NCBI GenBank assembly: GCA_025060505.1
Contig: JANXBU010000003.1
Coordinates: forward strand, 1 to 47,123
Direction: 5' to 3'
Length of the DNA: 47,123 nt
Source: Candidatus Calescibacterium sp.
GTDB lineage: Bacteria; Calescibacteriota; Calescibacteriia; Calescibacteriales; Calescibacteriaceae
Shown here piece by piece: positions 3,824 through 40,531 of this stretch (the first letter of the stretch is position 1; the number at the start of each line of letters is the position of its first letter). A program made the translations under genes and the position numbers. The notes below the pieces were generated by a model. That model saw only the letters and a list, made by a program, of their open reading frames with translations, was not told the origin of the DNA and did not search any database.

Positions 3824-3912
3824 AATAGAAAAATTCTTGTTTTGTTCTATGCTGAATATAGAAACCTTATAAACAAAGAAATTTGTAAAAAATTTTGTTT
3901 TTATGAACAAAT

Positions 3913-4536: not shown

Positions 4537-4550
4537 GAGGTAAAAAATAA

Positions 4551-7500: not shown

Positions 7501-7580
7501 GGTCTTTGAAGGAGCTCGGAACAGATCCAGCTGTGACATACCTTGAAAAAGTTTTTGACTTGGAAATTTTGAAGGGGTAG
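4551..7580 (+). CDS. actB: Alternative complex III subunit ActB, molybdopterin-oxidoreductase-like / iron-sulfur fusion
   Basis: This 1009-residue protein has the ActB fusion layout. A twin-arginine-like motif (SRRNFFKF, residues 20-27) precedes a hydrophobic stretch and Cys44, a possible lipid-anchor site. Residues 60-720 resemble the large subunit of molybdopterin oxidoreductases. Residues about 760-970 form a ferredoxin domain with cysteine clusters at about 768 (CIGCQACVIAC), 841 (CQQCDHAPC), 873 (CVGTRFCANNC), 922 (CTFC) and 951 (CAQVCP), consistent with four clusters. Unusually, the N-terminal half keeps Cys75, Cys78, Cys82 and Cys110 in the spacing of a molybdopterin-enzyme [4Fe-4S] site. 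No obvious Mo ligand was seen. It relays electrons from quinol-oxidising ActC to ActA. Confidence 0.94.
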   Translation: MNDIKNEMNNGGKKENIDISRRNFFKFFGKSSVAVGTVALIESCVKKPEPEKLLPYLNVPETIIPGVPYFYATTCSGCPASCGILVKTEDAIPRKVEGNPEHPLSGGKTCARAQATLHQLYSPDRIKDNLIRGKTETKTISTDEVIQIIADKIKEADPKKIFFITGNITGKTEKFYLDFASNFGIPYENIIRWETFSFSGIRKASELLFGVQSVPIFRIDKSDFILSLSADFLDSGPSTVLYTRWFGQFISVDEKAGRKNKFVHVSPRLNLTGQNAQKWIKVKPGGEVVFASLLLNKIIDEKFSNYSYLKIQVPAGLQEKYNILQKDIDFVAKLLINSSSPLVIPPSYGAEDLTSLCLVSLLINYVLGSYEKNISLEGFSYSKLATYSEISSFIQKAKNKQVDILFVMNNFDLVYTIPDSFGIKSALSEIPFVVSFAYHQNETSDFSHLVVADLHPFERWGDSEIVNGLISFYQPVIRPMYQKLQSEDILIAVANKLKEGSFNYQSFKDYMFGQYGFSDEQIVKYLELGGVFNFDLAQKPVSLKSDVTEVIGKLKFNEVSDGLNLIAYVPYHIYDGRLANSPWMQQFFDVSNRVSWTNSAEMSKKTAQKLGVKNGDIIEIEKEGKKIELPVAVYYGIVDDVIAVSVGRGHKKYGRFANTGANVFDLIEPRYDQLSGDLSFFVPNISVSKTTKKLRRLPTDQGVPRTLGRGVAFFTSVQKLPEQDYYKKFKDYEKLLKKRFPKGDIEKYNRDSAKPSPYKWGLVVDLDKCIGCQACVIACQVENNIPFVDQKEVIWGREISWVRVERYFVSPEEIEHKGEHHNGHNGKESDELYPVFVPMMCQQCDHAPCEYVCPVYATGHTSDGLNYQAYNRCVGTRFCANNCPYKVRYFNWHDYYKNIPEPLTMGLNPEVTVRSKGVMEKCTFCIQRIKYAEHNAKVEKREVRDGEITPACAQVCPTDAITFGNLKSESSKVSQVRKSKRADWSLKELGTDPAVTYLEKVFDLEILKG

Positions 7581-7626
7581 ATTTTGAAGAGATGATAAAT
7601 ATGGAAAACCGAGGGAGGTATAGTTT

Positions 7627-9030
7627 ATGAAGGTTGATGCGTCAGGTCAGAAGGTAATATCTGTTGACATACACGAGGGGATGTCTCCAGAAGCTAGGGA
7701 GTATGGTAGGCAGTTTACATACTCTGAAATATCTGAGGAGATATGGCGTGCTTCTCAGAAGCCATCGCTTGCTTACTTTTTAGCTTTGGGATTTTGCATA
7801 GGTGGAGTTCTTCTGGGAGTTGGAACCTTTGCTTATATGGTGATAGATGGTATGGGAGTTGTTGGTTTCACTCCGCCTATATTCTGGGTGCACTTTATTG
7901 TTAATTTCGTTTTCTGGGTAGGTATTGCTCACTCTGGAACTCTGATTTCAGCTGTGCTTCATCTCTTCCGCTCAAAATGGAGAAGAGGTATTTTCAGAAT
8001 AGCAGAAGCTATGACAGTTTTTGCCGTTCTCACAGCTGGTCTCTTCCCTCTTATACACATAGGACGCCAATGGTATTTCTACTGGCTTGTTCCTTATCCA
8101 AACCGAGGAATGTGGGTAAATTTCAAATCTGCTCTCATGTGGGATTTTGTCGCTGTTTTAACATATCTTACGGTAAGTGTGATGTTCTTCTACATAGGGA
8201 TGATTCCAGATCTCGCTACATTTCGTGATAAGGCAAAAGGAATAAGGAAATTTATTTATTCGCTTCTTTCATTGGGATGGAAGGGAACAGATAAAGAGTG
8301 GAGGCACTACAACAGATCATATATGTTTTTTGCAGCTTTTGCTACCCCTCTTGTTATATCGGTCCACTCGGTGGTGTCTTTGGATTTTGCTTCTGGTGTT
8401 ATACCGGGTTGGCAGAGCACTATATTCCCACCATATTTCGTTGCAGGTGCTATATTCTCTGGAATGGCAATGGTTGTGACAATAGTGACTCCGCTGAGGA
8501 AACTTATGAAACTTGAAAAATTCATAACAGACTGGCACTATGATCATATGGGGAAGATTATTCTTGTCACAGGTCTTATAGTTACATACTCCTACGTTGT
8601 TGAATTTGTTTTAGCTTTATTTTCTGGAAATATATATGAGTATCAACAGTTTGTATACAGGGCTGTCGGACATTACAGTGGTCCGTTTTGGGGTATGGTA
8701 ATTTGTAACTGTGTTGTTCCACTTTTTATGATTTCAAAGAAAGTAAGGACAAATGTCTGGCTTATGTTTGTTCTTTCAATTTTTGTAAACATAGGTATGT
8801 GGCTTGAACGTTTCAACATAATTATGATTTCTCTATCGCATGACTTTCTACCGTATGCTTTTGATGTGTATAGAATGAAGTGGCCAGAATGGGCTATGAC
8901 TTTTGCTGCCTTCTGCTGGTTCTTCATGTGGTTCTTATTATTTGCTAAATTTTTCCCAGTCATATCTGTTGCGGAAACAAAGGAATTGGTTCCAAAACCT
9001 TTTAGAAAAGGAGGTGAGCACCATGGGTAA
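7627..9030 (+). CDS. actC: Alternative complex III subunit ActC, NrfD/PsrC-like quinol-oxidising membrane protein
   Basis: This 467-residue membrane protein of the NrfD/PsrC family has about ten transmembrane helices after a polar N-terminus of some 45 residues. Typical ActC features include the IEEIW-like segment SEEIWRASQKPS, the helix-boundary IGRQWYFYWLVPYPN and the C-terminal MWLERFNIIMISL. In ACIII this subunit carries the periplasm-side quinol site next to ActB. A strong Shine-Dalgarno sequence (GGGAGG, 7614-7619) precedes ATG 7627. The last codons overlap the start of actD by eight bases, implying translational coupling. Confidence 0.94.
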   Translation: MKVDASGQKVISVDIHEGMSPEAREYGRQFTYSEISEEIWRASQKPSLAYFLALGFCIGGVLLGVGTFAYMVIDGMGVVGFTPPIFWVHFIVNFVFWVGIAHSGTLISAVLHLFRSKWRRGIFRIAEAMTVFAVLTAGLFPLIHIGRQWYFYWLVPYPNRGMWVNFKSALMWDFVAVLTYLTVSVMFFYIGMIPDLATFRDKAKGIRKFIYSLLSLGWKGTDKEWRHYNRSYMFFAAFATPLVISVHSVVSLDFASGVIPGWQSTIFPPYFVAGAIFSGMAMVVTIVTPLRKLMKLEKFITDWHYDHMGKIILVTGLIVTYSYVVEFVLALFSGNIYEYQQFVYRAVGHYSGPFWGMVICNCVVPLFMISKKVRTNVWLMFVLSIFVNIGMWLERFNIIMISLSHDFLPYAFDVYRMKWPEWAMTFAAFCWFFMWFLLFAKFFPVISVAETKELVPKPFRKGGEHHG

Positions 9031-9538
9031 GGTAGTTTTAGGTAAGTTTACCTACGTAGATGATGTAGAAGAGGCAATAGATGAACTCCTGAAAGCAGGT
9101 TATAACAAAAAAGATATACAATTTATATCATCATTTCCAATTGAAGATATTATAGATAAACTTGGTGGAACAGATAGTCCGGTAAAATTTCCAGTTCTTG
9201 TAGGTGGTCTTACAGGTTTTTCTGCAGCCATTGCTCTTGTGCTCGTAACATCGCTTGCTTATGTTCTGCCGGTTGGTGGAAAGCCTGTTGTTGCTTGGAT
9301 ACCATATGTAATAGTTATGTTTGAGATGACAGTTCTTTTAGGATCAATTTTCAATCTGCTTGGAGTTATATTGTTGTCACGCTTACCAGATATATTTTTC
9401 TTCCTCGGTTGGAGAGCCTATCTTCCTTCCTTCTCTGATGACAAATTCGGAATAGCCGTATACACAGATAAAATAGATGAGGTGGTTTCAATTTTTAAGA
9501 AGAACAACGTAGAGGAGGTCAGGGAATATGAGGTTTAA
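9023..9538 (+). CDS. actD: Alternative complex III subunit ActD (DUF3341)
   Basis: The start is set at ATG 9023, preceded by the excellent Shine-Dalgarno sequence GGAGGTGA (9010-9017). This gives 171 residues starting MGKVVLGKFTYVDDVEEAID, the usual DUF3341 beginning. The open frame extends upstream to 8903, but that part lies inside actC and is not coding. ActD has a cytoplasmic alpha/beta domain, two transmembrane helices (about 62-84 and 98-122) with a PVGGKP loop, and a short cytoplasmic tail. It is a structural subunit of ACIII without cofactors. It overlaps actC by eight bases and actE by eleven. Confidence 0.93.
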   Translation: MGKVVLGKFTYVDDVEEAIDELLKAGYNKKDIQFISSFPIEDIIDKLGGTDSPVKFPVLVGGLTGFSAAIALVLVTSLAYVLPVGGKPVVAWIPYVIVMFEMTVLLGSIFNLLGVILLSRLPDIFFFLGWRAYLPSFSDDKFGIAVYTDKIDEVVSIFKKNNVEEVREYEV

Positions 9539-10076
9539 AATCTTTATATTTTTGTTTTTGATTGTTTTTGGCTTTGCTTATACACTATATCCATGGCCAT
9601 GGACAAGGGATATGTACTTTTCTCCTACTGTGAATCATGAGAAAAAACCCAAAGCAGATACAGAAGCAATACCCAGAGGCGGGGCGAATCCAGTCATTTT
9701 AGCCAAGAGAAAACTACAGAATCCGGTTTTGGTTAAAAACTCTTTCAACGAGTATAAAAATCCTGTTCGTCCAACAGAGGAATCAATCAAGAATGGAGAG
9801 AGATTATACAACATATACTGTATAGGTTGCCATGGAAAGCAAGGTGTAGGAGATGGTGAAGTTGCAAAGAGGATGGTTCCGCCGCAAAACCTTCAGTCTG
9901 ATTATGCTAAAAACCTTCCAGATGGTTATATTTTTGCCACTATTATAGGGGGAAGTGTTATAATGCCCGCTCAGAAAAAGGCTCTTTCTGAGAAAGAAGT
10001 TTGGGATATCGTGAACTATGTGAGAAAGTTGCAGGGATTTGATGTTATGGCAAGATGGGAACAGATGAACAAATAA
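9528..10076 (+). CDS. actE: Alternative complex III subunit ActE, monohaem cytochrome c
   Basis: A 182-residue exported cytochrome c. The N-terminal hydrophobic segment (about 3-20) is followed by the ActE-typical WPWTRDMYFSPTVN and a proline-rich stretch. The single haem motif CIGCH lies near residue 98, with a distal methionine in the SVIMPAQ segment near 145. The start overlaps the end of actD, and GGAGG (9513-9517) precedes it. In ACIII this subunit is on the periplasmic face and probably hands electrons to the terminal oxidase or a soluble carrier. The signal sequence lacks an obvious lipobox cysteine, unlike some ActE proteins. Confidence 0.93.
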   Translation: MRFKIFIFLFLIVFGFAYTLYPWPWTRDMYFSPTVNHEKKPKADTEAIPRGGANPVILAKRKLQNPVLVKNSFNEYKNPVRPTEESIKNGERLYNIYCIGCHGKQGVGDGEVAKRMVPPQNLQSDYAKNLPDGYIFATIIGGSVIMPAQKKALSEKEVWDIVNYVRKLQGFDVMARWEQMNK

Positions 10077-10104
10077 GATGAATTAATAGGGAGGGAATTA
10101 CGTT

Positions 10105-11298
10105 ATGAAGCATTTTGAGTTTACAGAAACCGAAGCTAAAAGGAATTTTTTCAGTGGAACTATAAATCCGGTAGCCTACATTGTTTTGGGTATTTCTATT
10201 GTTGTTGCTTTTCTTGGTCTGACATCTGATCCAAAGAGGTTCTGGGGTATATTCCATACGAACCTTCTCTTCTTTCTTGGTATAGCGCAGGGAAGTGCTC
10301 TTTTTTATGCTCTTGTTAAAGTTACAAAGGGGTACTGGTCTGTTCCAATTATAAGGGTTATTCCATATGGAATTTTGCTTCTACCAATTGTGACTGTGCT
10401 TTTCTTTATTGAGTGGATTTTTGGCGGAAAATATATTTTCCCTTACTTTCATCCAGAAGAAATCCATCATCACAGATTTGGTTGGCTTTCTCCATCGTTT
10501 GTCTTCACCAGAGATGCGATTATTCTTTTGATTATGAACTTTTTGAGCTTACGACTGGTTGGATATTCTCTTGCAACAGATGGACTAAAAATTCCTTTTA
10601 TACCTTCTCCAAATGTTTCGCCAGATGTTGCTATTAAGAAAATTCATTCACTTAGTAAAGCCGTTGTAGTCTTTTTCGTAGTTGGTTATACCATCTTTGG
10701 TTGGGATCAAGCCATGTATCTCGATCCGCATTGGTACAGCACTATATTTGGAGCTCGTTTCTTCATAACAATGCACCTGACATACCTTGCTACCTTTTCT
10801 TTCATAAACTCATATCTTATGACGAAACAGGAATTTGTAGAGAAGGTAGGTAAAAAATATCTCAACAACGTAGGAACTCTGATTTTTGGATTTTGTATAT
10901 TCTGGTCTTATCTGTTTTATGCGGAGCTCGTGGTTATATACATGGGAAATATACCTGAATTTACACACTGGTATGTTGATAGAATTTACTCACCATGGAG
11001 AATTACTTTCTTCCTTGAAATCTTTTTAGTTTTTGTTATTCCATTCTTAACTCTTCTTCATATTCCTATAAAGACAAACCCGAGAATACTTCCTTTCATA
11101 GCTTCGGCTGTTCTTTTGGGTCTATTTATAAGAACCTATGATGTTGCATACTTTGAGATAGTGAAATCTGAAGCTCCTCAGTTCGGATGGATTGAGCTCG
11201 GTGTTACTGCTGGTTTCGTTTCACTTACATATATTATCTCTAAATTTTATCTTCGTAAGACAAACGCTTTCCCAATATACGAAGCCGAAAATTTCTAA
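10105..11298 (+). CDS. actF: Alternative complex III subunit ActF, NrfD-like membrane protein
   Basis: This is the second NrfD-like polytopic subunit: 397 residues with about ten helices, related to ActC but shorter. Recognisable ActF features are the early GTINPVAYIVLG segment, the HEEIHHHRFGWLS-like periplasmic loop (EEIHHHRFGWLSP near 113-125) and MYLDPHWYSTIFGARFF near 207. It is proposed to contribute to proton movement in ACIII. GGGAGG (10090-10095) precedes ATG 10105. It is the last ACIII gene; no actG and no cytochrome oxidase genes follow, and the next gene has its own promoter. Confidence 0.94.
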   Translation: MKHFEFTETEAKRNFFSGTINPVAYIVLGISIVVAFLGLTSDPKRFWGIFHTNLLFFLGIAQGSALFYALVKVTKGYWSVPIIRVIPYGILLLPIVTVLFFIEWIFGGKYIFPYFHPEEIHHHRFGWLSPSFVFTRDAIILLIMNFLSLRLVGYSLATDGLKIPFIPSPNVSPDVAIKKIHSLSKAVVVFFVVGYTIFGWDQAMYLDPHWYSTIFGARFFITMHLTYLATFSFINSYLMTKQEFVEKVGKKYLNNVGTLIFGFCIFWSYLFYAELVVIYMGNIPEFTHWYVDRIYSPWRITFFLEIFLVFVIPFLTLLHIPIKTNPRILPFIASAVLLGLFIRTYDVAYFEIVKSEAPQFGWIELGVTAGFVSLTYIISKFYLRKTNAFPIYEAENF

Positions 11299-12214: not shown

Positions 12215-13294
12215 CTATCTTTTGTATATAGGGCACTGCTTGCAGAATTGCGGTGGATTGCTTCTGAAATTTCTTATAAATTTCGCTCTATTTTGGTAGA
12301 AAGTCTTTTCATTCTCAAATATATTACCCATAATAGATTCCGTTGGAAAGAAGAACGGATACGGCATACAGCATGGATATAAAGTTCCGTTCACTCTTAT
12401 GGTTGCCATAAAATATGCTAAGTAGCAATATCCGTTTGCTCTTGTTCCTATATCTTCAAAATTGTTCAGAACAATCTCTATTTTGTTTTTGTATTTTTCT
12501 TTGAGCCCCTGAACCTTTTGACGGGATTTTTCAGATGGAACATGGAGTTCCGGAACATTGAAAAGTAATCTTTGAAACTTGATTCTATCTACGCCTATTT
12601 TGATTCCATTTTTTATTATTTCTTCTGCATCTTCTGTATTCTCCTCTGAAAGAACTGCGTTTATACTTATTATTGGTAGGTATTTTCCAGTCTTTCTCTT
12701 TGCTTCAACGAGTTTTTGGAGGTTATGCAAAACTTTTTTAAGATCACCTCCTTCTCTTATTTTTGAAAATTTCTTTTCATCAAAAGAATCAACAGATGCG
12801 TGTATCTCATATAGACCTGATTGAATAACCTGATATGGATCTGGCAAAACAGAGAAATTTGAGAATATATTTACCAATATGTTTCTTTCAGAGCTTGCAT
12901 ACTTTATCATCTTTATTGTATCCTTAGATAGAAATGGTTCCCCAGATAGGTTCATTATAGCTACAAATGCTTCTGGTATTTTTTCAAATATTTTTGAGAA
13001 ATCTTCAAACCTCATGAATTCCTTTTTGTTCTCACCAGCTCTGCACATCAGACAGTTGAAATTGCATCCACTTACGGTTTCAATCTGAAGTATGCTCGGT
13101 TTTATGTTGTTGATGATTATTCCGTATCTCCATGCAACGAAAGACAGAAGTATGTTTTTGGCTCTTCTCAAAGCTAATTTGGCATTGTTCAGCGGAAAAA
13201 TTTTGTTCGCTACGTATGATATTCTCATTATTTCTTCTTTCGTTCTTATTCTTCTTGAAATTCCAAACCTACTGAGTATAAAATCTAAAACCAT
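12215..13294 (-). CDS. Radical SAM enzyme with SPASM-like C-terminal cysteines (paralogue 1)
   Basis: This is a 359-residue radical SAM protein. The CX3CX2C cluster motif is Cys77, Cys81 and Cys84, preceded by the family-specific lead PSILQIETVSGCN. GEPFLSKD provides the SAM-contacting glycine-rich motif. The C-terminal half has further cysteines (GYCYLAYF, YPCCMPYPFF, FCKQCPIYKR) in a SPASM-like arrangement for auxiliary iron-sulfur clusters. It shares its N-terminal helix pattern (arginine pair, then 'NILLSF..WRYG') and C-terminal CxxCPIY end with three other proteins at 16684, 17802 and 18879. The substrate is unknown; SPASM proteins often modify peptides, but some act on other substrates. 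It diverges from a membrane protein gene with only 16 bases between starts. Confidence 0.85.
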   Translation of the reverse strand: MVLDFILSRFGISRRIRTKEEIMRISYVANKIFPLNNAKLALRRAKNILLSFVAWRYGIIINNIKPSILQIETVSGCNFNCLMCRAGENKKEFMRFEDFSKIFEKIPEAFVAIMNLSGEPFLSKDTIKMIKYASSERNILVNIFSNFSVLPDPYQVIQSGLYEIHASVDSFDEKKFSKIREGGDLKKVLHNLQKLVEAKRKTGKYLPIISINAVLSEENTEDAEEIIKNGIKIGVDRIKFQRLLFNVPELHVPSEKSRQKVQGLKEKYKNKIEIVLNNFEDIGTRANGYCYLAYFMATIRVNGTLYPCCMPYPFFFPTESIMGNIFENEKTFYQNRAKFIRNFRSNPPQFCKQCPIYKR

Positions 13295-13307
13295 ACAATA
13301 AAAATTA
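13294..13307. promoter_or_regulatory. Compact divergent promoter region between radical SAM 1 and GT-C-like gene 1
   Basis: The whole intergenic region is 16 bases (13295-13310). On the plus strand TACAAT (13294-13299) lies eleven bases before ATG 13311. On the minus strand TAATTT (complement of 13302-13307) lies seven bases before ATG 13294. The -35 regions would fall inside the opposite coding sequences. The elements are assigned by position only. Confidence 0.35.
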
Positions 13308-13310
13308 GAT

Positions 13311-14957
13311 ATGACGAAGAAAAATTACCGTTTGTTGATATTCTCTGCTATTTTGTTTTTTGTGGTTCTGAACAACTTTTATCTTGACCAATCTATACAT
13401 TCCGAGGGCGTTGGAATAGTTTCTGTTTGGCCGAAAATCATTTTTGGTATTGACTTTGAAAAAGGTAAATTCATATATTCCGATGAAATAGTTGTGAGTA
13501 AGGAACTTGGACCAATTAAACTGAATTTCAACTCATTTTTCCCATATCTTACGGCTGAGATTTTCGGAAAGGATTTAATGATATCTTGGGTTTTCTACTA
13601 TACACCGTTTGTTCCATACATACTTTTTTCTTTCGTAAAAGATAACCCAGCTGTGCAGAAATACATAATACTTATTCCATTCGTGCTTATATTTATCGCC
13701 TATTTTATTTCTTCTCTGAAGCTTGCAAATCTCATGTTTCAAAATTTTTTCAAAGATAAAAAATTCCCGAGCTTATTGTTCATTCTTTTTCTTATCTCTT
13801 CTCCATCTTTGTACTGTTTGTTCTATCAGCTTCATCACCTTCAGGCATCCATTTTCTTTAATCTTTTTGCCATCTCAATTATTCAGAGAAGGTATTTTTG
13901 GAGCGGTTTTTTAGGAGGACTTACTCTTTACTCTTATTCTCCATCTGTTTTCCTTGTTGTTGGTCTATATCTGACACAAATTGTCAAAAATCGTGATTTC
14001 AGAAAAACTTTATTATCAATGCTTTTTTCTTTTATGTTTTTAGTTCCATACATATTTCACTTGTATGTTGCCGAAAAGATAAATTACAAACAGATCTACG
14101 GATGTACCGATTGTATATTTTATAACGCTTATACAGAGATCTATAATTTTTTTGGTCAGAAGATCAGGACTTTTTCTCTTGATGAATTGGGTAAAAACAT
14201 ACAAAAAGATTTTTTACCATCGATTCCAAAATTATTTTCATCTTTTGTGGCAGGTTTCTTCGGAGAATTAAAAAAATCTTTCTCTATATCAGATCTATTT
14301 TTGATATATGGAATAACGTATGAACATTCTGAATTTCACAATCTTGCTAACATTTCTATTTGGGTATTTCTTATTATTTTCTTTGTTTTTGGTTTTCTCT
14401 TTTTCACCGGAACATTTGAGTTTATAGCCTTAATTGTATGTGGATTTATGTATTTTATTTTTGGATATATTTTCCCAACTGTCCCGAAAATGCTATATCT
14501 TCTTTTGCCGTTTTTTTCTATTTTGTTTGTAAAATTGTTCTTTGAACTTCAGAGGTTCGCAAAAGACATAGCTTTCATTCTCATTTTTTCTATGATTTTT
14601 CGTATGATTGATATCTACGGTATTACTGAGAAGTATAATGATTACTTCAGAACAAAAGAAGTGAAAGAAGTTGTGGAATTTGTTGTAGATAGCTCAATGA
14701 AAAATATTTATGTCTTTTCACTACCATTAGCATTTTTTTACTATAGCGAGGGAAGAATCAACCCAACTACTATAGCTATTTACAGATGGACAGAAGATCA
14801 GAAATACAAAATAGCAGAGTTTATTGCACAAAATGTGGATTCACTTGTTATACAGAAGGATTTCGAACCTATATTTCTCAAAGTTGATTCTATGCGAAAA
14901 AATTTTGAGGTGGTTTTTAAGAGCGAATCTTATTTGGTGTTCAGAAGAAAAGAATAA
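13311..14957 (+). CDS. Polytopic membrane protein, GT-C glycosyltransferase-like (1)
   Basis: This 548-residue protein has about eleven hydrophobic helices. A long first extracytoplasmic loop (about 28-85) follows helix 1, and a soluble C-terminal region starts after about residue 430. This layout resembles GT-C enzymes, which use polyprenyl-phosphate sugars on the outer face of the inner membrane. I see no decisive catalytic motif, so the enzyme class is inferred from topology and context only. A pair of cysteines (CTDC, about 264-267) lies in a periplasmic loop. It is divergent from radical SAM 1 and lies 219 bases upstream of a second protein of similar layout. Confidence 0.62.
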   Translation: MTKKNYRLLIFSAILFFVVLNNFYLDQSIHSEGVGIVSVWPKIIFGIDFEKGKFIYSDEIVVSKELGPIKLNFNSFFPYLTAEIFGKDLMISWVFYYTPFVPYILFSFVKDNPAVQKYIILIPFVLIFIAYFISSLKLANLMFQNFFKDKKFPSLLFILFLISSPSLYCLFYQLHHLQASIFFNLFAISIIQRRYFWSGFLGGLTLYSYSPSVFLVVGLYLTQIVKNRDFRKTLLSMLFSFMFLVPYIFHLYVAEKINYKQIYGCTDCIFYNAYTEIYNFFGQKIRTFSLDELGKNIQKDFLPSIPKLFSSFVAGFFGELKKSFSISDLFLIYGITYEHSEFHNLANISIWVFLIIFFVFGFLFFTGTFEFIALIVCGFMYFIFGYIFPTVPKMLYLLLPFFSILFVKLFFELQRFAKDIAFILIFSMIFRMIDIYGITEKYNDYFRTKEVKEVVEFVVDSSMKNIYVFSLPLAFFYYSEGRINPTTIAIYRWTEDQKYKIAEFIAQNVDSLVIQKDFEPIFLKVDSMRKNFEVVFKSESYLVFRRKE

Positions 14958-15176
14958 ATTATTTCTTAGTTTTATATCATAAAAATCAAAGCTTTACCAT
15001 ATTTTGATTGTTTCTGAAATCTTTCTCTTTTTGTGGTATCTTTTTAGTTACAAAGCATAGGATTGGGTATAGCTTGTGATTGAATATATTTTTGAAATAT
15101 TTTTATATGTTGTTTTTGAATTTTTCATGCTCAGGGAGCTTAGAATAAAATTTCTTGGCTTAGAAAATATTTCTAT
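14958..15176. other. 219-base gap with weak inverted repeat
   Basis: An inverted repeat, AATCAAA (14984-14990) and TTTGATT (15003-15009) with a 12-base loop, follows the first membrane-protein gene. It could be a weak terminator, though no long T-run follows. The rest is AT-rich with no gene that I can support. Confidence 0.25.
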
Positions 15177-16682
15177 ATGAATCTCCTAAGAAATTTGAAT
15201 GCAGAAAGCTTCAAGCGAAATGCAACTTTTCTATTCTTTTTGCTCTGTACTTTATGCATAATGTATCCCGAGAATATCAATGATTTGTTCTACTACGATG
15301 ATAATCCAATAAGATACATGATAGCAAAAAGCTGGGTAGAGGGCAAACTTTCGGAGCAAGAAAAAAAATTTTTTCTCGCTTATGGGTCATCAGAGATATA
15401 CATACCATTCTTCTATATAGCTAGGGTATTAAAAGTAGATTATGAGCTTGCATATAATCTTTCATCTATACTGATTTTGATTCTCAGCTTGTTATGGATT
15501 TTCTACTCTCTGCCAAAGGACTTCAAAGATATATATATTATTTTTCCTTTTTTATGTTTGTTTGCCATTGTATGTCTTACAAAAGGTTCAATGCATTGGC
15601 TTGTTGTATCATCTGTACTACTAAACATAATTTGCTCTAGGGAGGTAAAGCCAATACACTATATAGCTATGGGTATATCTTACATAATTTCTCCACCACT
15701 TGTTGTTATCTCCGGAATGCTGTTTTTGATTTTTCTGTTTCGTGGAGATAGGAAGAAAGCTTTTTTGTTTGTGATTCCATTTTTATTTTCAATACCGAAG
15801 TTCATTATTGTATCTGAAATAACTCTTGAGGAGGTAAAAAAAACTCTTAATATGGCTCACCAGATTGGTAGACAAATTGTTGGAGAAACTCATTCATTTG
15901 CACCACCAGTACCATCTGTATTTATAAGACCATTCAAAGCAGATTATTTTGAGAATCCTTTACTTCCCGGAGTTATCATATACCTTACTTTTATCAGGAG
16001 TATTTTTACAAGAGATAAATTTGCGGTATTTGTTTTTGTATCTTTCTATGTATTCATATTTGTTTCAATTCTAATTTTTGAGTTGTGGATAAAAGGTTAC
16101 AATATACCAGATATAGTTGTAAGTATGCTTTCGTTTTTTTTCACATCAAATCCTTTCAGGTTTGCTCCAATAGCATTGGCTTACCTGATAATAAATTCCG
16201 AAAATAAATCTTATGACAAGGTTTTGGGTTTGATTGTAGTCACAGCAATTGTTTTGGCATCTGTTCAATCTGTTGCAAGTAAACAAGGAGAACTACCAAG
16301 AAAGATACCGGAGGAGATAAAATCTTTTATAAGATTTTTGAATGAAATAGATCATAAAAGGATCTTGGTTGAGGGCGATGTACACTTTATAGAAAATGGA
16401 AAACTAGTTCATCCACTCTATAACTCTCATATAATATCGTATATAGTTGCTGAAGTTAATAATAAAGAATTTTACGGTGGCGTTTTCCCTTGGCAACTTT
16501 ATAAATATAACTTTTTCTTTGGTAAGTTTAATTCAAAACCTCTGCAAGAATCAGATATACTTGATTTCATAATTAAAAATAGAATAGAGGCAGTTATATG
16601 TTGGTCAGATCAATGCACAGATTTCTTCTCTAAAGACAAAATATTTCATTTTGGTAAGTTCAAATTTATAAATTTAAAGTGA
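15177..16682 (+). CDS. Polytopic membrane protein, GT-C glycosyltransferase-like (2)
   Basis: This 501-residue protein has about ten hydrophobic helices and a soluble C-terminal tail from about residue 390. An acidic loop follows helix 1 (LFYYDDNPIRYM, about 41-52), where GT-C enzymes carry a catalytic or metal-binding Asp. A polyprenyl-sugar-dependent glycosyltransferase is therefore plausible but unproven. The stop codon (TGA 16680-16682) is one base before the GTG start of the second radical SAM gene, a strong sign that the two proteins are co-translated and work in the same process. Confidence 0.65.
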   Translation: MNLLRNLNAESFKRNATFLFFLLCTLCIMYPENINDLFYYDDNPIRYMIAKSWVEGKLSEQEKKFFLAYGSSEIYIPFFYIARVLKVDYELAYNLSSILILILSLLWIFYSLPKDFKDIYIIFPFLCLFAIVCLTKGSMHWLVVSSVLLNIICSREVKPIHYIAMGISYIISPPLVVISGMLFLIFLFRGDRKKAFLFVIPFLFSIPKFIIVSEITLEEVKKTLNMAHQIGRQIVGETHSFAPPVPSVFIRPFKADYFENPLLPGVIIYLTFIRSIFTRDKFAVFVFVSFYVFIFVSILIFELWIKGYNIPDIVVSMLSFFFTSNPFRFAPIALAYLIINSENKSYDKVLGLIVVTAIVLASVQSVASKQGELPRKIPEEIKSFIRFLNEIDHKRILVEGDVHFIENGKLVHPLYNSHIISYIVAEVNNKEFYGGVFPWQLYKYNFFFGKFNSKPLQESDILDFIIKNRIEAVICWSDQCTDFFSKDKIFHFGKFKFINLK

Positions 16683-16683
16683 A

Positions 16684-17766
16684 GTGGCAAGATACATTAA
16701 TACAAGGTATAGACAATTCAGATTTCTGTTGAACAAAGCTTTTCCATCTTGGGAACCCCTTTTATCTGTAAGAAGATTCTGGAATCTTATGTTTAGCTAT
16801 TTGCAATGGAAATTTGGGATAAGTTTTTTTGCTACAAAACCAACAATGCTCACAGTTGAGGTGGTCAGAGGATGCAATATAAACTGTATTATGTGTGGAG
16901 CAGGGGAAACAAAAAAGAGCTTCCTTTCATTTGATAAATTCAAGGAATTAATTGAAAACTTTGAGGAGACAATTTTCATATTTCTGTATCTGTGGGGTGA
17001 GCCGTTCCTCTCAAAAGATATAACTAAAATAATAAGATATGCTTCTGTTCAAAAGAGCAAAATTGTTACTGTATACTCAAATTTCACAGTTCTTCCAGAT
17101 GAGGTAGAGCTTATAAATTCAGAACCTTATGAGATAACTGCTTCTATTGATACATTTGATAAGAAAAAATACGAGTTCATAAGAACTGGGGCAAAATTCG
17201 ATAAGGTTATTGAAAACCTACAAAAGCTCATCAAAACGAAACAGAAGCTAAGGAAGAATTTCCCAATCATAGGCATAAATTCAATAGTATCAGAAGAAAC
17301 CTTAGATGATTTTGAGCTGAATATAAAGATGGCGATAGAACTCGGGGTTGATAAGATAAAGTTTCAAGGATTGTTCCCATTTCCAAAAACAGGATTAAAG
17401 GATATATCAGACAGAAACAAAATAAAAAAGATAACAGAAATCAAAAAAAAATACAGTGATAGAATAAAGATAGAAATACTCCCATTTTATGGTGGTATAG
17501 GAGATGATTTTCCAAAAGGATATTGTTTTTTAGCTCATTTTTCTGGAGCCATAGATACAAATGGTTATGCCTTACCATGTTGTATGCCAAATCAGTTCTT
17601 CAACAATCTATCAGCTCTTCTACTCAGTTCATATAGAAATGATTCAATTCTAGGAAATGTTTTTGAAGATCACAAAACATACATTAGAAACAGAGTAGAT
17701 TTTCTGAGATCTTTTCGTAACTCTCGTCCTACGTTTTGTTCGAATTGTCCGCTATATTACAGATAG
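16684..17766 (+). CDS. Radical SAM enzyme with SPASM-like C-terminal cysteines (paralogue 2)
   Basis: This 360-residue paralogue has CX3CX2C at Cys64, Cys68 and Cys71 after the lead TVEVVRGCN, and LWGEPFLSKD as the glycine-rich SAM motif. C-terminal cysteines occur in GYCFLAHF, LPCCMPNQFF and TFCSNCPLYYR. It is closest in detail to paralogue 1 (both have CCMP and the AGExKK continuation after the cluster motif). The GTG start at 16684 follows the stop of the GT-C-like gene by one base and has no separate Shine-Dalgarno sequence, implying translational coupling. The substrate is unknown, and the coupling suggests a membrane-associated target. Confidence 0.86.
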   Translation: MARYINTRYRQFRFLLNKAFPSWEPLLSVRRFWNLMFSYLQWKFGISFFATKPTMLTVEVVRGCNINCIMCGAGETKKSFLSFDKFKELIENFEETIFIFLYLWGEPFLSKDITKIIRYASVQKSKIVTVYSNFTVLPDEVELINSEPYEITASIDTFDKKKYEFIRTGAKFDKVIENLQKLIKTKQKLRKNFPIIGINSIVSEETLDDFELNIKMAIELGVDKIKFQGLFPFPKTGLKDISDRNKIKKITEIKKKYSDRIKIEILPFYGGIGDDFPKGYCFLAHFSGAIDTNGYALPCCMPNQFFNNLSALLLSSYRNDSILGNVFEDHKTYIRNRVDFLRSFRNSRPTFCSNCPLYYR

Positions 17767-17801
17767 AAATTTTTTCGGTCAATCAGTTGTGAATTGATAA
17801 T

Positions 17802-18860
17802 TCAGCAGTTTCTGTAGTAAATTGGGCAGCCCTCACACCATTTCGGCGGGTTTTCTCTGAAAGTATTCAAAAATTCATTTCTCTGAAAGATTACTCCATC
17901 AGGACCGTCAGAAAAAATATTCCCAAAAACTCCTTTCTTTCTTTTCTCAGGAACAGTTCCACATATACAAGGGTATGTATTCCCATCGGTTGTTATGAAT
18001 AAAGTTGAGTAAGCGAACTGACAGAAACCAGAAAAATAATCACCCCTTTCATAATCGTAGTGCGATATGAGATAAATATCAGCTTTTCCTTTGTATTTTT
18101 TTTTCAGCGATTTTATTATTTCAATATCATTCTTATCTGGTATATCAACAGATGGGTTCAGGAACTCTGCTGTGTAGAGCGTTTGGAAGTAAAATGAATT
18201 TATACCAAGCTCAAGCCCTTTTGAAATTATATCTTCAAGATCGTTGACGTTTTCTTTCATAACAGTGCAATTTATACATATTTCTGGGAACTTGGTGCCG
18301 GTTTTTCTTTTTGCATCCTGTAATTTTTTTATGTTTTTCACAACTACATCTATGTTTCCTCCTTCTCTTATTTTTGAGAACATCTGTTTATCAAATGTAT
18401 CTATTGAGGCAAAAATTTTCCTTATACCTGTTTGAATAAGCTTTTGAGGATCTATAACGGAAAAGTTAGAGAATGGAAGAACAATGAAATTTTTTCTAAC
18501 AGCATAGCTCAACATTTCATAGATATCTCTGTGGAGGAAAGATTCTCCAACTCCGTATGGATAAAGGAATAAAGCATCATCGAATTGATCTAAAATTTTA
18601 TTGAAGATTTCAAGAGATATTTTTGATTTTTCAAAAAGTGTTCCAGCTCTACAACCAACGCAATTGAAATTACAACCATTAACTATTTCAATAAAAAGTG
18701 TCGTAGGTCTTGGAGGAAAAATAAATTTACCAGTTTTCCTACCTATGTAGTTGTTCGCGAGGTTCAAAAATCTTCTGGTGTTGAGCTTTGATACAAAATA
18801 AAGAAGGTCGCTTCTGATCAATCCACTTCTTATTTCATCAATCAGGCTCAGTAGACTCAT
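17802..18860 (-). CDS. Radical SAM enzyme with SPASM-like C-terminal cysteines (paralogue 3)
   Basis: This 352-residue paralogue has CX3CX2C at Cys63, Cys67 and Cys70 (CNFNCVGC) after TLFIEIVNG. The usual GEP of the SAM-binding motif is GES here (GVGESFLHRD). The C-terminal cysteines are in GFCQFAYS, YPCICGT and WCEGCPIYYRNC, the last adding an extra terminal Cys. It resembles paralogue 4 most closely: both have PYGVGE, SHYDYERGDYF/SHYDYEKGDFF and FAYxTxFI. The gene lies 18 bases downstream of paralogue 4 on the same strand and is probably in its operon. The convergent partner on the left is paralogue 2. Confidence 0.85.
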   Translation of the reverse strand: MSLLSLIDEIRSGLIRSDLLYFVSKLNTRRFLNLANNYIGRKTGKFIFPPRPTTLFIEIVNGCNFNCVGCRAGTLFEKSKISLEIFNKILDQFDDALFLYPYGVGESFLHRDIYEMLSYAVRKNFIVLPFSNFSVIDPQKLIQTGIRKIFASIDTFDKQMFSKIREGGNIDVVVKNIKKLQDAKRKTGTKFPEICINCTVMKENVNDLEDIISKGLELGINSFYFQTLYTAEFLNPSVDIPDKNDIEIIKSLKKKYKGKADIYLISHYDYERGDYFSGFCQFAYSTLFITTDGNTYPCICGTVPEKRKKGVFGNIFSDGPDGVIFQRNEFLNTFRENPPKWCEGCPIYYRNC

Positions 18861-18878
18861 ATACCCTTTTTTAAATTT

Positions 18879-19955
18879 TTAGAAATTTCTGCAATATACT
18901 GGACACCCTTTACAGTACTCGGGTTTAGCTTTTCTGAAGTTTTCCAGGAAAGTTTGTCTTTTTGATATGGCTCCATCTACATCAGATATGTAACCGAAGT
19001 TCTGATTTCTTTTTGAGATTGGTGCAGCGTAAACGCATGGAAAAATCTTTCCTTCAACATCTATGAATATAGTTGTGTAAGCAAATAAGCAGTAGCCAGT
19101 GAAAAAGTCCCCTTTTTCATAATCATAGTGAGAGGTCAGAAGTATTCTGGCTCTACCCTTATACTTTGATTTAAGACTTTTTACTTTCTCTATTTGTTGC
19201 TTCGTTGGTATATCTCCGGGGGTATCTAAAATGTCTACCTTAAACACAGTTTGAAAGAAAAATGTATCAACTCCGTAAGATAAACCGAGTTCAACAACAC
19301 TTTCTATATCTTCTGTATTATTGTCAAATAGTGTGATGCTGAACCCTATTTTTGGTGTATATGAGTTCAGAGTCTTCTTTCGCTCAATTATCAACTTCAA
19401 ATTCTCTATAAATTTATCTAAGTTTCCATTTTTTCTTATTTGGGAAAATTCCTGAGGATTTGTCGAGTCTATAGAAGCGAAAACATATTTAACTCCAGTT
19501 TTTATCAGCTCATCCGGGTCTATTTTTGAGAGGTTTGTAAAGGGTGTTATTTGAAATCCCTTCTGTACTGCGTACTTGAGCATCTTATATGTTTCTTTGT
19601 TCAAAAAGGGCTCTCCCACACCATAGGGAAATATAAAGGTAGCATCGTGGAATTTTTCTAAGATTTCCTTGAAGGTGTCAAATGACATAAATTGTATTTC
19701 AAATTGGCTAGCCGGACACATAACGCATGAGAAATTACATCCACGAACAACCTCTATAAACAAAGTCGCGGGTCTCAAGGGTTTGAATATATGAAAGCCA
19801 AATCTTCTTGCTATATATGAATTTACGATATTTCTGAACCTTTTTGCGTTCATACTTTTGATGAAATCAAAACCAAATCTTCTGGTGAGAAATCCTAAAT
19901 CTTCAGCGATTTTGTTTATAGGCACAGCTGATTCGGTAAATTTGTTTATGGTCAT
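18879..19955 (-). CDS. Radical SAM enzyme with SPASM-like C-terminal cysteines (paralogue 4)
   Basis: This is a 358-residue paralogue when started at ATG 19955. A TTG two codons upstream is also possible, but a TAAAAT hexamer nine bases before the ATG (complement of 19965-19970) favours the ATG. The cluster motif CNFSCVMC follows TLFIEVVRG, and the glycine-rich motif is GVGEPFLNKE. SPASM-like cysteines are in GYCLFAYT, FPCVYAAP and YCKGCPVYCRNF. The N-terminal helix 'AKRFRNIVNSYIARRFG' is shared with paralogue 3. With paralogue 3 it forms a two-gene leftward unit next to a UbiA-family gene. Confidence 0.85.
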   Translation of the reverse strand: MTINKFTESAVPINKIAEDLGFLTRRFGFDFIKSMNAKRFRNIVNSYIARRFGFHIFKPLRPATLFIEVVRGCNFSCVMCPASQFEIQFMSFDTFKEILEKFHDATFIFPYGVGEPFLNKETYKMLKYAVQKGFQITPFTNLSKIDPDELIKTGVKYVFASIDSTNPQEFSQIRKNGNLDKFIENLKLIIERKKTLNSYTPKIGFSITLFDNNTEDIESVVELGLSYGVDTFFFQTVFKVDILDTPGDIPTKQQIEKVKSLKSKYKGRARILLTSHYDYEKGDFFTGYCLFAYTTIFIDVEGKIFPCVYAAPISKRNQNFGYISDVDGAISKRQTFLENFRKAKPEYCKGCPVYCRNF

Positions 19956-20019
19956 AACCAATCTATTTTAGTGATTTCAAAGAAAATTTGTTAAATATTC
20001 TTAGGTTCTTCCTATTATT

Positions 20020-20802
20020 TTAATTCAGTATGTCGGGTAACCTTTCAAAAGCAAATATACCAATACACAGTACTGCGAAGTTAATCCTATAGAACATTCT
20101 GTACAATTGTATTGCTATTTTCTTTCTGAGCATACTTAGTATGAAGACCAGGTGTGTCAGAAAGGCTACCGGGAGTAAAAACTTCAATATATTATTACTC
20201 GTATTAATATACATAAGCAAGTAGGCTGAGAAAAATAGTGCAGATGAGATGAACATTGAGATCTTAGTTCCTAAAACAGACGATAGGTTCTTTTGTCTCA
20301 GGTCTTTATCTTCATCAATGTCTTGAACAAGGTCAACTATATAACCTCCTGTGAAAGCGAGTGAAACTCCTGATGCAAGAATAAAGGTCTGAAAAGAGAA
20401 GTTTGAATTGTCTGAGAAAATTACTCCAAAATAAAATTGTAGTATACCGCCGAAGAAATGTAGAATAAGATCAGGAAGAACCATTAGTTTTCGAGATGTG
20501 TAGTAAAAAATCCAGTTTGCAAATATCAGCAAAGGAAAAATGCCATGTATGAAGCCTTTTTGTAAGCCGATGGTGCAACTTGCAGTTAGAAGTACAACAG
20601 AGCGAATCAGATAATTCTTGGAAGAAAAAAAATCTCCTAGAGCAAAAACAGATAAAGCGCATAGAAAACTTGAAGCATAAAGTATAAGCAAATCTGAAAA
20701 AAGCAAGGTCTCGGTGAACATAAAGTATCCGAATACAGGGATACCGGAAAGAAATAGAGCTTCAAAAACTCTTAATTTTATAAAGAAACTCAGCAACACC
20801 AT
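20020..20802 (-). CDS. UbiA-family membrane protein with degenerate first Asp motif
   Basis: This 260-residue protein has about eight hydrophobic helices. The second UbiA motif is clear (DLVQDIDEDKDLRQKNL, Asp157-Asp167), where Asp residues bind Mg-diphosphate. The first motif, normally NDxxDxxxD, is reduced to GDFFSSKN around Asp57, so classical prenyl-transfer chemistry is uncertain. UbiA relatives attach prenyl or polyprenyl chains to quinone precursors, haem, glycerol phosphate or sugars. It lies upstream of radical SAM genes 4 and 3 on the same strand, with 64 bases to paralogue 4, and has its own TATTAA element six bases before the ATG. A role in making or using a lipid carrier for this cluster is inferred. 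Confidence 0.8.
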   Translation of the reverse strand: MVLLSFFIKLRVFEALFLSGIPVFGYFMFTETLLFSDLLILYASSFLCALSVFALGDFFSSKNYLIRSVVLLTASCTIGLQKGFIHGIFPLLIFANWIFYYTSRKLMVLPDLILHFFGGILQFYFGVIFSDNSNFSFQTFILASGVSLAFTGGYIVDLVQDIDEDKDLRQKNLSSVLGTKISMFISSALFFSAYLLMYINTSNNILKFLLPVAFLTHLVFILSMLRKKIAIQLYRMFYRINFAVLCIGIFAFERLPDILN

Positions 20803-21063: not shown

Positions 21064-21831
21064 TTATGGAGTGCTTTTTAGTTTTGAGCAGGCGGGAGAG
21101 TATCCGAGCTCGCAGGATATATACAAGTATTTTTTATCTCCGGTTTTCTCCCAGTTTTTCCAACATCCATAAGCATCAAAATATTCGCAGGATTTTCTGA
21201 GATATTCTTTTGGGGACTTATTATATTTTGGATCGTTTTCGTATATCTCATAGAGATAAAAGCAGGCTGTACCATTTTTCATTGAGCAGGCCCTTTCAAA
21301 CAATTCTATACCTTTGTTTTTATCTTCATTAGTGAATCTCCCGTTATAATACATAAATCCAAGTATATAACAATCATTTGGGCTTTTTTCTCCTTTGCAT
21401 TTTCTCGTTGCTATCTCGTAAGCTTTCTTGAGAGATTGTTCTGATTTATCTTTTCTCCCAGTCGACTCATATATTGCAGCTAAGTTCAGACAACCTCCGG
21501 AGAGATTGAATTCCTCGCAGGCTATCTGATATATCCTTTCGTTGTTATCTTTGAATATCATGTAGGCTCTTTTTGAGTACTCTGATCCTATCTTTAGTCT
21601 TTCTTTCATTTCAATTTTTTTTGTGGTTCCCCATAGACCTTCAATATAAATTATAGAGAGTTTGGCACATGAGTATCCATCCTCTAAAATACATCCCGCG
21701 TCATAGTATTCTATAGCTTTATTGTAATCTTTTTCTTGCTCATATTTCTTTGCATTTTTTAAGCAATCTGTGATGGAACCGCTGTAACAGTTCTGAGATA
21801 TTAGAAGTAGTGAGAATACAAATTCTATCAT
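21064..21831 (-). CDS. Exported Sel1-like repeat protein with paired cysteines (Hcp-like)
   Basis: This 255-residue protein has a short N-terminal hydrophobic signal (residues 2-13). It is followed by about five Sel1/TPR-type helical repeats with recognisable A-x-L-x-x-I-Y and G-x-x-Y cores. Nearly every repeat carries two cysteines about eight residues apart (GCILEDGYSC, ACSMKNGTAC, SCEYFDAYGC, SCELGYSPAC), as in the Helicobacter cysteine-rich proteins where they form disulfides. That supports a periplasmic or extracellular location. Such scaffolds bind proteins or peptides. It diverges from the giant cysteine-rich protein gene with 67 bases between starts; TAAAAT (complement of 21839-21844) lies seven bases before its ATG. 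Confidence 0.85.
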   Translation of the reverse strand: MIEFVFSLLLISQNCYSGSITDCLKNAKKYEQEKDYNKAIEYYDAGCILEDGYSCAKLSIIYIEGLWGTTKKIEMKERLKIGSEYSKRAYMIFKDNNERIYQIACEEFNLSGGCLNLAAIYESTGRKDKSEQSLKKAYEIATRKCKGEKSPNDCYILGFMYYNGRFTNEDKNKGIELFERACSMKNGTACFYLYEIYENDPKYNKSPKEYLRKSCEYFDAYGCWKNWEKTGDKKYLYISCELGYSPACSKLKSTP

Positions 21832-21898: not shown

Positions 21899-24800
21899 AT
21901 GTCAAAAAGATTTTTTGTCTATTTTCTAATTTCATTTGCAATAATTCTAAGTATTGTTTTAGCTCTGTTAACTCTTAAACCCAAAAGTATAAGAGCAATA
22001 GGTGGAATTTCGGAGGAAGAGAGATTGTACATTACAGAATCTTTTAAAGGGCTCCAGGCAAAATTCTATGAACTTGTAAGAGCAAAAGGTGTAAAAAATA
22101 TCACAGCGCAAGACATCGTTCAGAATATGGATGAAAGAACCTTAGGGATACTGAAAAAATACTATTTTGATAATGGATGCCCCACGGGAAAAACATCTTC
22201 TTTTGAAGAGTGCGTTGAAAAAATTATAAAAGATCTAAGATTCATTTTTGAGACAATCGGGGTTTCAGATAGGCTTCTTTCACAGATAGATGAAGGCAAC
22301 AGGAATCCGGTGAGTTTTATATGTCCAATCAATATGAATATAAAGAATGAGGATGAATGCTACAGGGAAGCAGCAAAGCAGTATATGATGCTACCGATTT
22401 TGGCCTTGATGAAAGATAAGGAGTTGAAAGAGAGGAACTGGTTGTATGCACCGCGTATATTTGGCAAAGAGCTCCCATCAACTCAGAAGCTCGCTGTAGA
22501 AGGTATAGGGTGTGGACTTACAAGCGGAAACCTTATGAATGTTTCAAATTTCAATCAACACTTCATTAATGTTGCTTTTGGTAAAGGAGCTCCTTACGAC
22601 ATACAATCTTGGTTTGGTGCAGATATTGTGGATACAGGCGCTCCAGGTTGTAATCCACCAGAAAGAGATTGCGGATTTGAGCAGAATATAAACACGGCAA
22701 CGGGAGAATTTTTCGGGCTTTTTCAGTGGCTGTCAGACCAGCTTGAGGAAAACCTTGCAAGCTCAAGTCTTATTCAATTTGTTCAGGGTTTGCTTATTGG
22801 TAAGGGAACGTGTAGTTCTATGGCCGGGGTTAACATGTGTCTTGTTGTCAGAGACCATACGGGAACTGGTGGGAATCAATGTTATGAAGATGTTAATTCA
22901 AATTTCCAGAACAATGTTATAAACGATGGTTATATTATGTATTACAACAGAGCCTTTGTTGAGGTTTTTCCAGATCCAAGCGCTGGTTATTTAACAGCAA
23001 TAATAGCGCTTTGGGCTGAGGCAGATACAGCCAATATAGATCCTTGGACAAGTGGTTTTGGAACCTTTATACCGTCTCACAACACAATAGATAGCGGAAA
23101 TTCAAGACCATCTTCAGAGATTTGTTTTGAAGCGAGGTCTTGTGCAGATGGATGGACATTTGGTCACGGAGATACTCAGTTTAGAGCATATGTTGAGGGA
23201 GTTCTGATAAGGTTCAGATTACAGGTCGTAGTTCAAGGATCTTTGGTTGATGTCTGTCCATTTTCTGCGGATCTTGATATTTTGGGATCAGATGTCGATC
23301 ACCCGGTTCTAGGATGTTTGACAGACTGTGTGGGAGCAGAACCTCTTTTGGAGGGTCTCGGACCACAGCTTGAAGCTGGATTGGATGGTTTCCTTCATGG
23401 CAACTGTCCTATACCTGGGGCAGGTCCTAACATTACAGATGCGAACTTGAGTTTGTGTCCCAAGAAACCTTCTGCTATGCCCGGTTCCGGACCAGGTGGA
23501 GGAAACTGTAATGCTTTACTTCCAGCTTGCCCAGCTTTTTCTCCAGGATGGAACTGCTGCTGGAATTATACAACCGGAAGTATGGAATGCAATCTTGGAG
23601 GAGGTAGTGGAGGATGCAAACATGCTCTTCTTCCAATAGATTTGAACGAACTTCTTATAACAGGTAGGGCTTTTTCTATCTCACAATTTTGTGGGAGACC
23701 AACATCAGCTCAGGATCCGCCATCTGGACACTCTCATGAGGATCCATCAAAGTGTTATCCTGGACCAATAAATGTTGGTCTGTTAAGCTTACCAAAAAGA
23801 CCATGGTATGGGACACTTGGTTGCTTTTCTGGAGAATATGATATTGGATGTTATACATATCCACACAGAGCTTTGATAATGGGTACAGGGTGTTCTATAT
23901 CTTTTGATGCCGGAATACGACCACGAGATCTATCTAAGACCTGTTATCCTGGCTTCATAACAAGAGGTATAGCTCTAGGTACAGATACAGGTGGATTCTT
24001 CCCTCGCCCTGCATTTGGTATAGATAATTACTCACCATTCCCGTTTCCGAACAACGCTTTACTGACTTCAAGGATAAATTCATGGGTACTTTCAACCATT
24101 ACACTTGCAGGTGGGAATGTGGATAACGGATATTTTCAAACCGCTGTAGGCTTCACTTTTAATTTTTATGCGGCTGGATATTCAGACCTATGTATATCAA
24201 CGAATGGTTATATAACCATGCCTCAGACCAATACTGGAGAGTGTACGGATCCAAATCCGGATCCTATACCTTCAACAACAACGCCAGACCCGTATATAGC
24301 GCCGCTTTGGGCTGATCTTTCTGGTGATAACAATGATTTTCTGTATTATTTTGTATCTCTTCCCCCGCTTTTTGTACCGCGAACTCAGCAGGCAAGACCT
24401 CCGGGGTCCTGGGCGCCAGCTGGAAACAACTATCCGAACGTGGCAATAGGTTGGAGTGGAGAACCTAACTACTACCATCTTGCTTTTAATAATACGGAGG
24501 GTAATATATGTGCTAATGGTACGAATTTCAATGACTATGTATATGCTTATCCTTTACCCGGTGGTTTTACATTCCCATTTTATGATCAAACAGGTAACAA
24601 CTACCTGTGTATAGACTCAAACGGATGGTTGGCTCCAAGAACCGGTGGATGTGGAGGTGTTGGATCTGCTCCATCAGGAGCTGCAATACCAAACGCAGCT
24701 GCTCCAAATGGAATAATAGCTGCGCTATGGAAAGATCTTTCTCCAGCTCGTCAAGAGCTCCGTGGTGGAGGGGACTGTGATGGAAGGTGCCCAGAGTGTG

Positions 24801-40499: not shown

Positions 40500-40531
40500 T
40501 TGATATTTTATTATTATCAATTTGATTTTTT
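40500..40531 (+). terminator. Weak hairpin with T-rich tail after gatC
   Basis: TTGATA (40500-40505) and TATCAA (40515-40520) form a six-pair stem with a nine-base loop, followed by TTTGATTTTTT. The stem is AT-rich, so stability at high temperature would be low. It lies between convergent gatC and the O-antigen-ligase-like gene. Confidence 0.28.

Follow-up and report, generated by a model that had tools for sequence, protein, structure and literature searches.

Twitch radical SAM enzymes linked to a predicted GT-C-fold transferase and a UbiA-fold protein in Candidatus Calescibacterium

What might four paralogous radical S-adenosylmethionine (SAM) enzymes be doing beside two large membrane proteins and a UbiA protein? 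The seven open reading frames (ORFs) that raise this question lie at positions 12215-20802 of a 47,123-nucleotide stretch of DNA (contig JANXBU010000003.1 of GenBank assembly GCA_025060505.1), here called the window. The source genome is a member of the Candidatus Calescibacterium (Calescamantes) family, a deep-branching lineage of thermophilic, hot-spring bacteria; the named genomes closest to it are those of Candidatus Calescibacterium nevadense, HRbin19 and two metagenome-assembled genomes. An original prediction, made from the window without database searches, suggested that the block serves a prenyl-linked glycan or lipid pathway. We find that Twitch radical SAM enzymes, a predicted GT-C-fold glycosyltransferase and a UbiA-fold protein recur together throughout the family.

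Linkage of the genes across the family

The two membrane proteins are termed GT-C1 and GT-C2, and the radical SAM enzymes A1, A2, B1 and B2 (Table 1). Radical SAM, GT-C1, GT-C2 and UbiA proteins are encoded in all five family genomes. By contrast with this, GT-C1, GT-C2 and the block UbiA were absent from a first set of 55 other genomes searched with single sequences, and profile searches of 331 other bacterial genomes (336 in all) found neither GT-C2 nor the block UbiA; outside the family GT-C1 was sought by the single-sequence search on the 55 genomes.

The genes are re-clustered in altered orders. The original prediction would have been refuted by homologues occurring singly with no tendency to co-occur, and this is not what is seen. 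In two family genomes (G001 and G003) the order is rSAM-A, rSAM-B, a 391-aa protein, GT-C2 and GT-C1 (rSAM denoting radical SAM). On contig 36 of G004 two radical SAM genes are followed by GT-C2 and GT-C1, while on its contig 35 UbiA is divergent with a radical SAM gene, after which come a Sel1 protein and two further radical SAM genes. The GT-C2 and UbiA genes of G002 share an ATGA overlap, and GT-C1 is next. Under random placement the probability of four markers falling within five adjacent genes is ~1.4e-8, and of three within three ~1.9e-6; G001 and G003 are closely related and are not independent. Within the window UbiA, B2 and B1 follow one another on the minus strand, 58 and 18 bp apart, and apparently form an operon of which UbiA is the first gene. 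The one-base gap noted between GT-C2 and A2 is real.

Two further proteins are found at these loci. In G001 and G003 alone, a protein of 391-399 aa is encoded between the radical SAM and GT-C genes (L023:11499-12698 and L025:11451-12626). Neither Pfam nor NCBIfam gives a match to it, and the other three family genomes have no homologue; its DMDD and QxxDGSF motifs recall class II terpene cyclases or alpha/alpha toroids. The Sel1/TPR protein adjoins UbiA in the window, and its single G004 orthologue lies in the radical SAM/UbiA block.

Table 1. Features of the block and its immediate neighbour, with window coordinates
Feature	Position	Strand	Remarks
Twitch radical SAM enzyme A1, 359 aa	12215..13294	-	divergent from GT-C1, 16-bp gap
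GT-C1, large polytopic membrane protein, 548 aa	13311..14957	+	GT-C status unproven; orthologues in 5/5 family genomes
GT-C2, predicted GT-C glycosyltransferase, 501 aa	15177..16682	+	fold match; invariant YxDDNPIR after first transmembrane helix
Twitch radical SAM enzyme A2, 360 aa	16684..17766	+	one base past GT-C2 stop
Twitch radical SAM enzyme B1, 352 aa	17802..18860	-	Pfam match, motifs, tree
Twitch radical SAM enzyme B2, 360 aa	18879..19961	-	18 bp upstream of B1
UbiA-fold protein, 260 aa	20020..20802	-	Asp motif 2 intact, motif 1 eroded
Sel1/TPR protein, 255 aa, possible accessory	21064..21831	-	orthologue within G004 block; unlinked in G001, G002, G003

Properties of the encoded proteins

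All four radical SAM paralogues exceed the Pfam cut-offs for both Radical_SAM and SPASM (PF13186), and their lengths fall in the stated range of 352-360 aa. The CX3CX2C motif of the SAM cluster is present in each. The GEPFL/GESFL and CxxCP(I/L/V)Y motifs that had been named are also found, together with those that distinguish two pairs (CCMP with AGExKK, and GVGE with SHYDYE). SPASM radical SAM enzymes with two auxiliary clusters have a seven-cysteine motif, CX9-15GX4C-CX2CX5CX3C-C. Despite the PF13186 match a full SPASM domain was rejected, since there are four post-core cysteines where that motif has seven. An alignment of 16 members has only C281, C299, C352 and C355 as invariant post-core cysteines, and in all four window enzymes these are spaced as CX12GX4C and CX2C, fitting the Twitch pattern CX9-15GX4C...CX2C. 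Because only four post-core cysteines are conserved, and in this spacing, the enzymes are of Twitch rather than SPASM type, with one predicted auxiliary cluster. The original assignment thus stands as to radical SAM, and falls as to SPASM.

The family profile was compared with solved structures. SkfB was the best match; BtrN was matched in its Twitch region, and viperin, BlsE and, weakly, tetraether synthase (7tol) in their cores. The N-terminal segment of the window enzymes is basic, with 9-13 Lys or Arg against 1-4 Asp or Glu across 52-66 residues. It had been described as an arginine-rich helix; its basic character is borne out, and its identity as a proven amphipathic anchor was rejected, as the hydrophobic moment is not clearly above that of shuffled sequences (fraction 0.06-0.11).

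The other paralogues are 35-44% identical to A2, and A1 shares ~50% identity with the A copies of G001, G002 and G003. In the tree the A clade is supported (97/96) and B1 pairs with B2 (94/94), while B as a clade and the remainder are unresolved. The enzymes number 4, 2, 2, 2 and at least 8 in the five family genomes, and four copies are not a fixed feature of the family. Members of this clade score 422-513 bits against their own profile, and the best outsider 190. Relatives at E 1e-30 or better are carried by 59 of the 336 genomes, five of the 59 being the lineage itself. Outside the lineage their neighbours often include GT2, GT4, Wzx-like, RmlD, nucleotidyltransferase or LPG_synthase_TM genes, though several have no such neighbour.

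Some arrangements of more distant relatives recur. In unrelated genomes one lies directly before an LPG_synthase_TM protein (PF03706; L104:5668-7637, L135:3159-5187 and L133:4167-6283). Within the family a second, more distant paralogue has a large membrane protein next to it or close by in G000, G002 and G003 (L031:6576-10134, L032:7359-11639 and L033:4835-9838); in G000 it is directly followed by a GT2 gene, confirmed by Pfam.

Pfam and NCBIfam assign no family to GT-C2, and a GT87 match was found below threshold in two of five orthologues. The predicted model of the protein (predicted local distance difference test, pLDDT, 75; predicted template modelling score, pTM, 0.77) was compared with known folds. 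The top match is AftA (Z 15.1 over 426 residues, root-mean-square deviation 5.9), with oligosaccharyltransferases tied at ~14. The top 35 rows of the list are all GT-C, with Z from 7.9 to 15.1 (34 chains at Z >=8), and the first unrelated chain has Z 4.4. Oligosaccharyltransferase, PMT, ArnT, AftD, ALG12 and Emb are each above Z 8. Foldseek by itself ranks oligosaccharyltransferase, AftD, PglB and ArnT first, with weak E-values. The catalytic acid of GT-C enzymes is usually located after the first transmembrane helix; in GT-C2 that helix is followed by YxDDNPIR (D41, D42), which is invariant across five orthologues. By its fold matches, the model supports the prediction that GT-C2 is a GT-C-fold transferase.

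Both membrane proteins had been called GT-C-like, and this is upheld by fold for GT-C2 only. A model of GT-C1 built from a five-sequence alignment has a pLDDT of 49. GT-C1 has no match in Pfam, including its glycosyltransferase families. Comparison of the GT-C1 and GT-C2 profiles gave a probability of 0.5%, and the sequences do not show the two to be related. The GT-C1 profile resembles the membrane proteins near the more distant radical SAM paralogue elsewhere in the family genomes. Searches of the Protein Data Bank with the sequences of GT-C1, GT-C2 and UbiA returned nothing meaningful.

The UbiA had been described as degenerate, and so it proved. The window copy scores 25.9 bits against a PF01040 cut-off of 34.2, while three orthologues pass (34.8-38.5 bits). 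The match spans positions ~65-244, and starts at profile position 65-76, past the first Asp motif. The second motif, DLxxDxxED, is invariant in the window protein and its orthologues. At the first (NDxxDxxxD) the window protein has GDFFSSKN, and four orthologues have NxxxE. Three ordinary UbiA copies, distinct from that of the block, are encoded in every family genome as well. Mg-phosphoribosyl pyrophosphate (PRPP) binding and activity in Rv3806c require Asn73 and Asp77 (PMC10994848), and ORF15 requires N247, D248, D251 and D255 (PMC11127046). Alignment to the ordinary copies indicates that the ligands of the Asn73/Asp77 type are replaced in the window protein. Because the first-motif Asn and Asp residues of Rv3806c and ORF15 are mostly replaced, it should not be called a polyprenyl-phosphoribose synthase, and in sequence it does not look like a known PRPP-using UbiA.

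A possible glycan module and its alternatives

We consider it an even chance that the block is a Calescibacterium-lineage module for a prenyl-linked envelope glycan, in which the Twitch radical SAM enzymes alter a sugar that GT-C then transfers. The UbiA-fold protein would make or handle a prenyl-linked intermediate at the cytoplasmic face of the membrane, to which the radical SAM enzymes might be carried by their basic N-terminal segments. These could oxidise, epimerise or deoxygenate the sugar by abstracting a hydrogen from it, the electron being moved by the four-cysteine auxiliary cluster. The lipid-linked sugar would then be transferred by the GT-C enzyme or enzymes on the outer face, and the duplicated radical SAM copies could allow the sugar to be modified in several different ways or at several positions. 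What the analysis shows is the gene content, the intact motifs, the linkage and the fold of GT-C2; the prenyl-linked substrate, the chemistry on a sugar, the attachment to the membrane and the sequence of steps are what we infer. A prenyl-linked glycan or lipid pathway remains the best inference, as originally proposed, with the enzyme class and the number of GT-C proteins corrected, because the genes co-occur and are linked across the family and the radical SAM relatives are often in polysaccharide loci.

A number of observations weigh against a glycan module. The genes of the window between 11.2 and 21.8 kb include no flippase, and the block has no phosphatase or nucleotide-sugar gene. GT-C1 is unproven as a GT-C enzyme. 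The block UbiA may be non-catalytic, because most of its first motif is lost. The radical SAM genes of G002 lie apart from GT-C and UbiA, and UbiA is unlinked in G001 and G003. The family sample is small, i.e. five genomes with three in one genus.

Other roles can be envisaged. The radical SAM enzymes could modify a membrane lipid, cross-linking a prenyl chain or core lipid or performing hydrogen chemistry upon it, while UbiA makes an ether or prenyl lipid and GT-C adds head-group sugars. The linkage to UbiA, the thermophilic lineage and the weak match to the archaeal tetraether synthase would all fit such a role. However, the match to 7tol is confined to the core common to most radical SAM enzymes, with SkfB, viperin and BlsE scoring better, and relatives elsewhere are in polysaccharide loci; we think a lipid role unlikely. 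Many radical SAM/SPASM proteins are maturases of ribosomally synthesized and post-translationally modified peptides, and the best match among solved structures, SkfB, is a sactisynthase, so a peptide-modifying system with several maturases might be imagined. Yet the two longest gaps of the block, where precursor peptides had been suggested as a check, contain only short, random-looking ORFs with no recognisable precursor candidate; the block has neither protease nor transporter, and it is UbiA and GT-C that recur as partners. Such a system is very improbable.

Still further from what is seen would be a set of maturases for a tungsten-cofactor oxidoreductase, or comparable cofactor enzymes, that only happen to lie next to unrelated membrane genes. 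TIGR04317, the profile of that maturase, is the top NCBIfam match of all four enzymes, but with a curated cut-off of 380 the scores (92.7-107.7 bits) reach about one-quarter of what is required, and this identity was rejected. No such oxidoreductase is beside the block among the proteins scanned, and the adjacency of GT-C and UbiA recurs across genomes; we give this explanation almost no weight. A true three-component pentofuranose pathway would comprise a UbiA polyprenyl-phosphoribose synthase, a flippase and GT-C with an auxiliary epimerase, radical SAM replacing DprE1/E2 or a short-chain dehydrogenase/reductase (SDR) epimerase. It shares the published gene logic (PMC11127046), and AftA is the nearest fold to GT-C2, albeit tied with oligosaccharyltransferases. 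The Mg-PRPP residues are mostly replaced in the window UbiA, though four orthologues keep NxxxE, and the block lacks both phosphatase and flippase; this pathway is distinctly unlikely.

Within the glycan module that we favour, the Twitch enzymes might act directly on the membrane prenyl-linked sugar in place of DprE1/E2 or SDR epimerases, GT-C receiving the radical-made sugars. We regard this as doubtful. If true, it would be a new way to diversify lipid-linked glycan donors, in which radical SAM copy number (from 2 to at least 8) sets glycan diversity. The compact, lineage-restricted module offers a small set of proteins with which to ask if radical chemistry modifies lipid-linked sugars.

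We note some other genes of the window. Directly before the block (3083-11298) are genes resembling an alternative complex III cluster, with NrfD-like membrane proteins and cytochrome c, named by sequence only. After it (21899-28384) is a cysteine-rich protein of 2161 aa, probably secreted, with a stretch of hydrophobic residues at its C-terminal end; a G004 contig with radical SAM genes encodes a weak relative (L028:11414-14044). An O-antigen ligase (Wzy_C) fused to TPR repeats is encoded ~20 kb from the block (40530-42980), and may hint at a surface glycan.

Comparison with known systems

An open-access literature search found no paper combining Calescibacterium with radical SAM and none joining radical SAM, epimerase, polysaccharide and polyprenyl, nor in the literature searched was there a tested case linking these radical SAM relatives to polyprenyl-linked glycan assembly. 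Among characterised enzymes, BtrN catalyses the oxidation of an aminocyclitol, with its four-cysteine auxiliary cluster as the presumed electron acceptor (PMC9012708). NeoN and HygY are described as Twitch radical SAM sugar epimerases (PMC10991966). The window enzymes share with these three the radical SAM core and CX9-15GX4C...CX2C, the likeness to BtrN being through its Twitch region and that to HygY and NeoN by published description. Overall similarity is weak. BtrN, HygY and NeoN are antibiotic-pathway enzymes, whereas those of the window add a basic N-terminal segment, multiple copies and linkage to GT-C and UbiA.

GT-C2 resembles AftA, ArnT, STT3/PglB, PMT and GT87 in its fold and in the acidic motif after the first transmembrane helix; it differs in belonging to no assigned family and in being confined to this lineage among the 336 genomes searched. 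The block UbiA is like the UbiA prenyltransferases (PF01040) in its profile match and second Asp motif, and unlike them in the erosion of the first.

Four radical SAM copies with UbiA and GT-C had been thought to have no described parallel. The copy number varies, and a similar gene logic has been published, the closest being a UbiA prenyl-phospho-sugar synthase with an auxiliary epimerase and a GT-C enzyme (PMC11127046); the window UbiA nevertheless lacks the defining residues of that synthase. Unlike the pentofuranose systems and the mycobacterial decaprenylphosphoryl arabinose pathway (Rv3806c UbiA, DprE1/E2 and the Emb/Aft GT-C enzymes), the block has lost most of UbiA motif 1, has radical SAM in place of a flavin-dependent (FAD) or SDR epimerase, and is without phosphatase or flippase. 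What it has in common with them is a UbiA fold, a candidate sugar-modifying enzyme and a GT-C protein in one locus.

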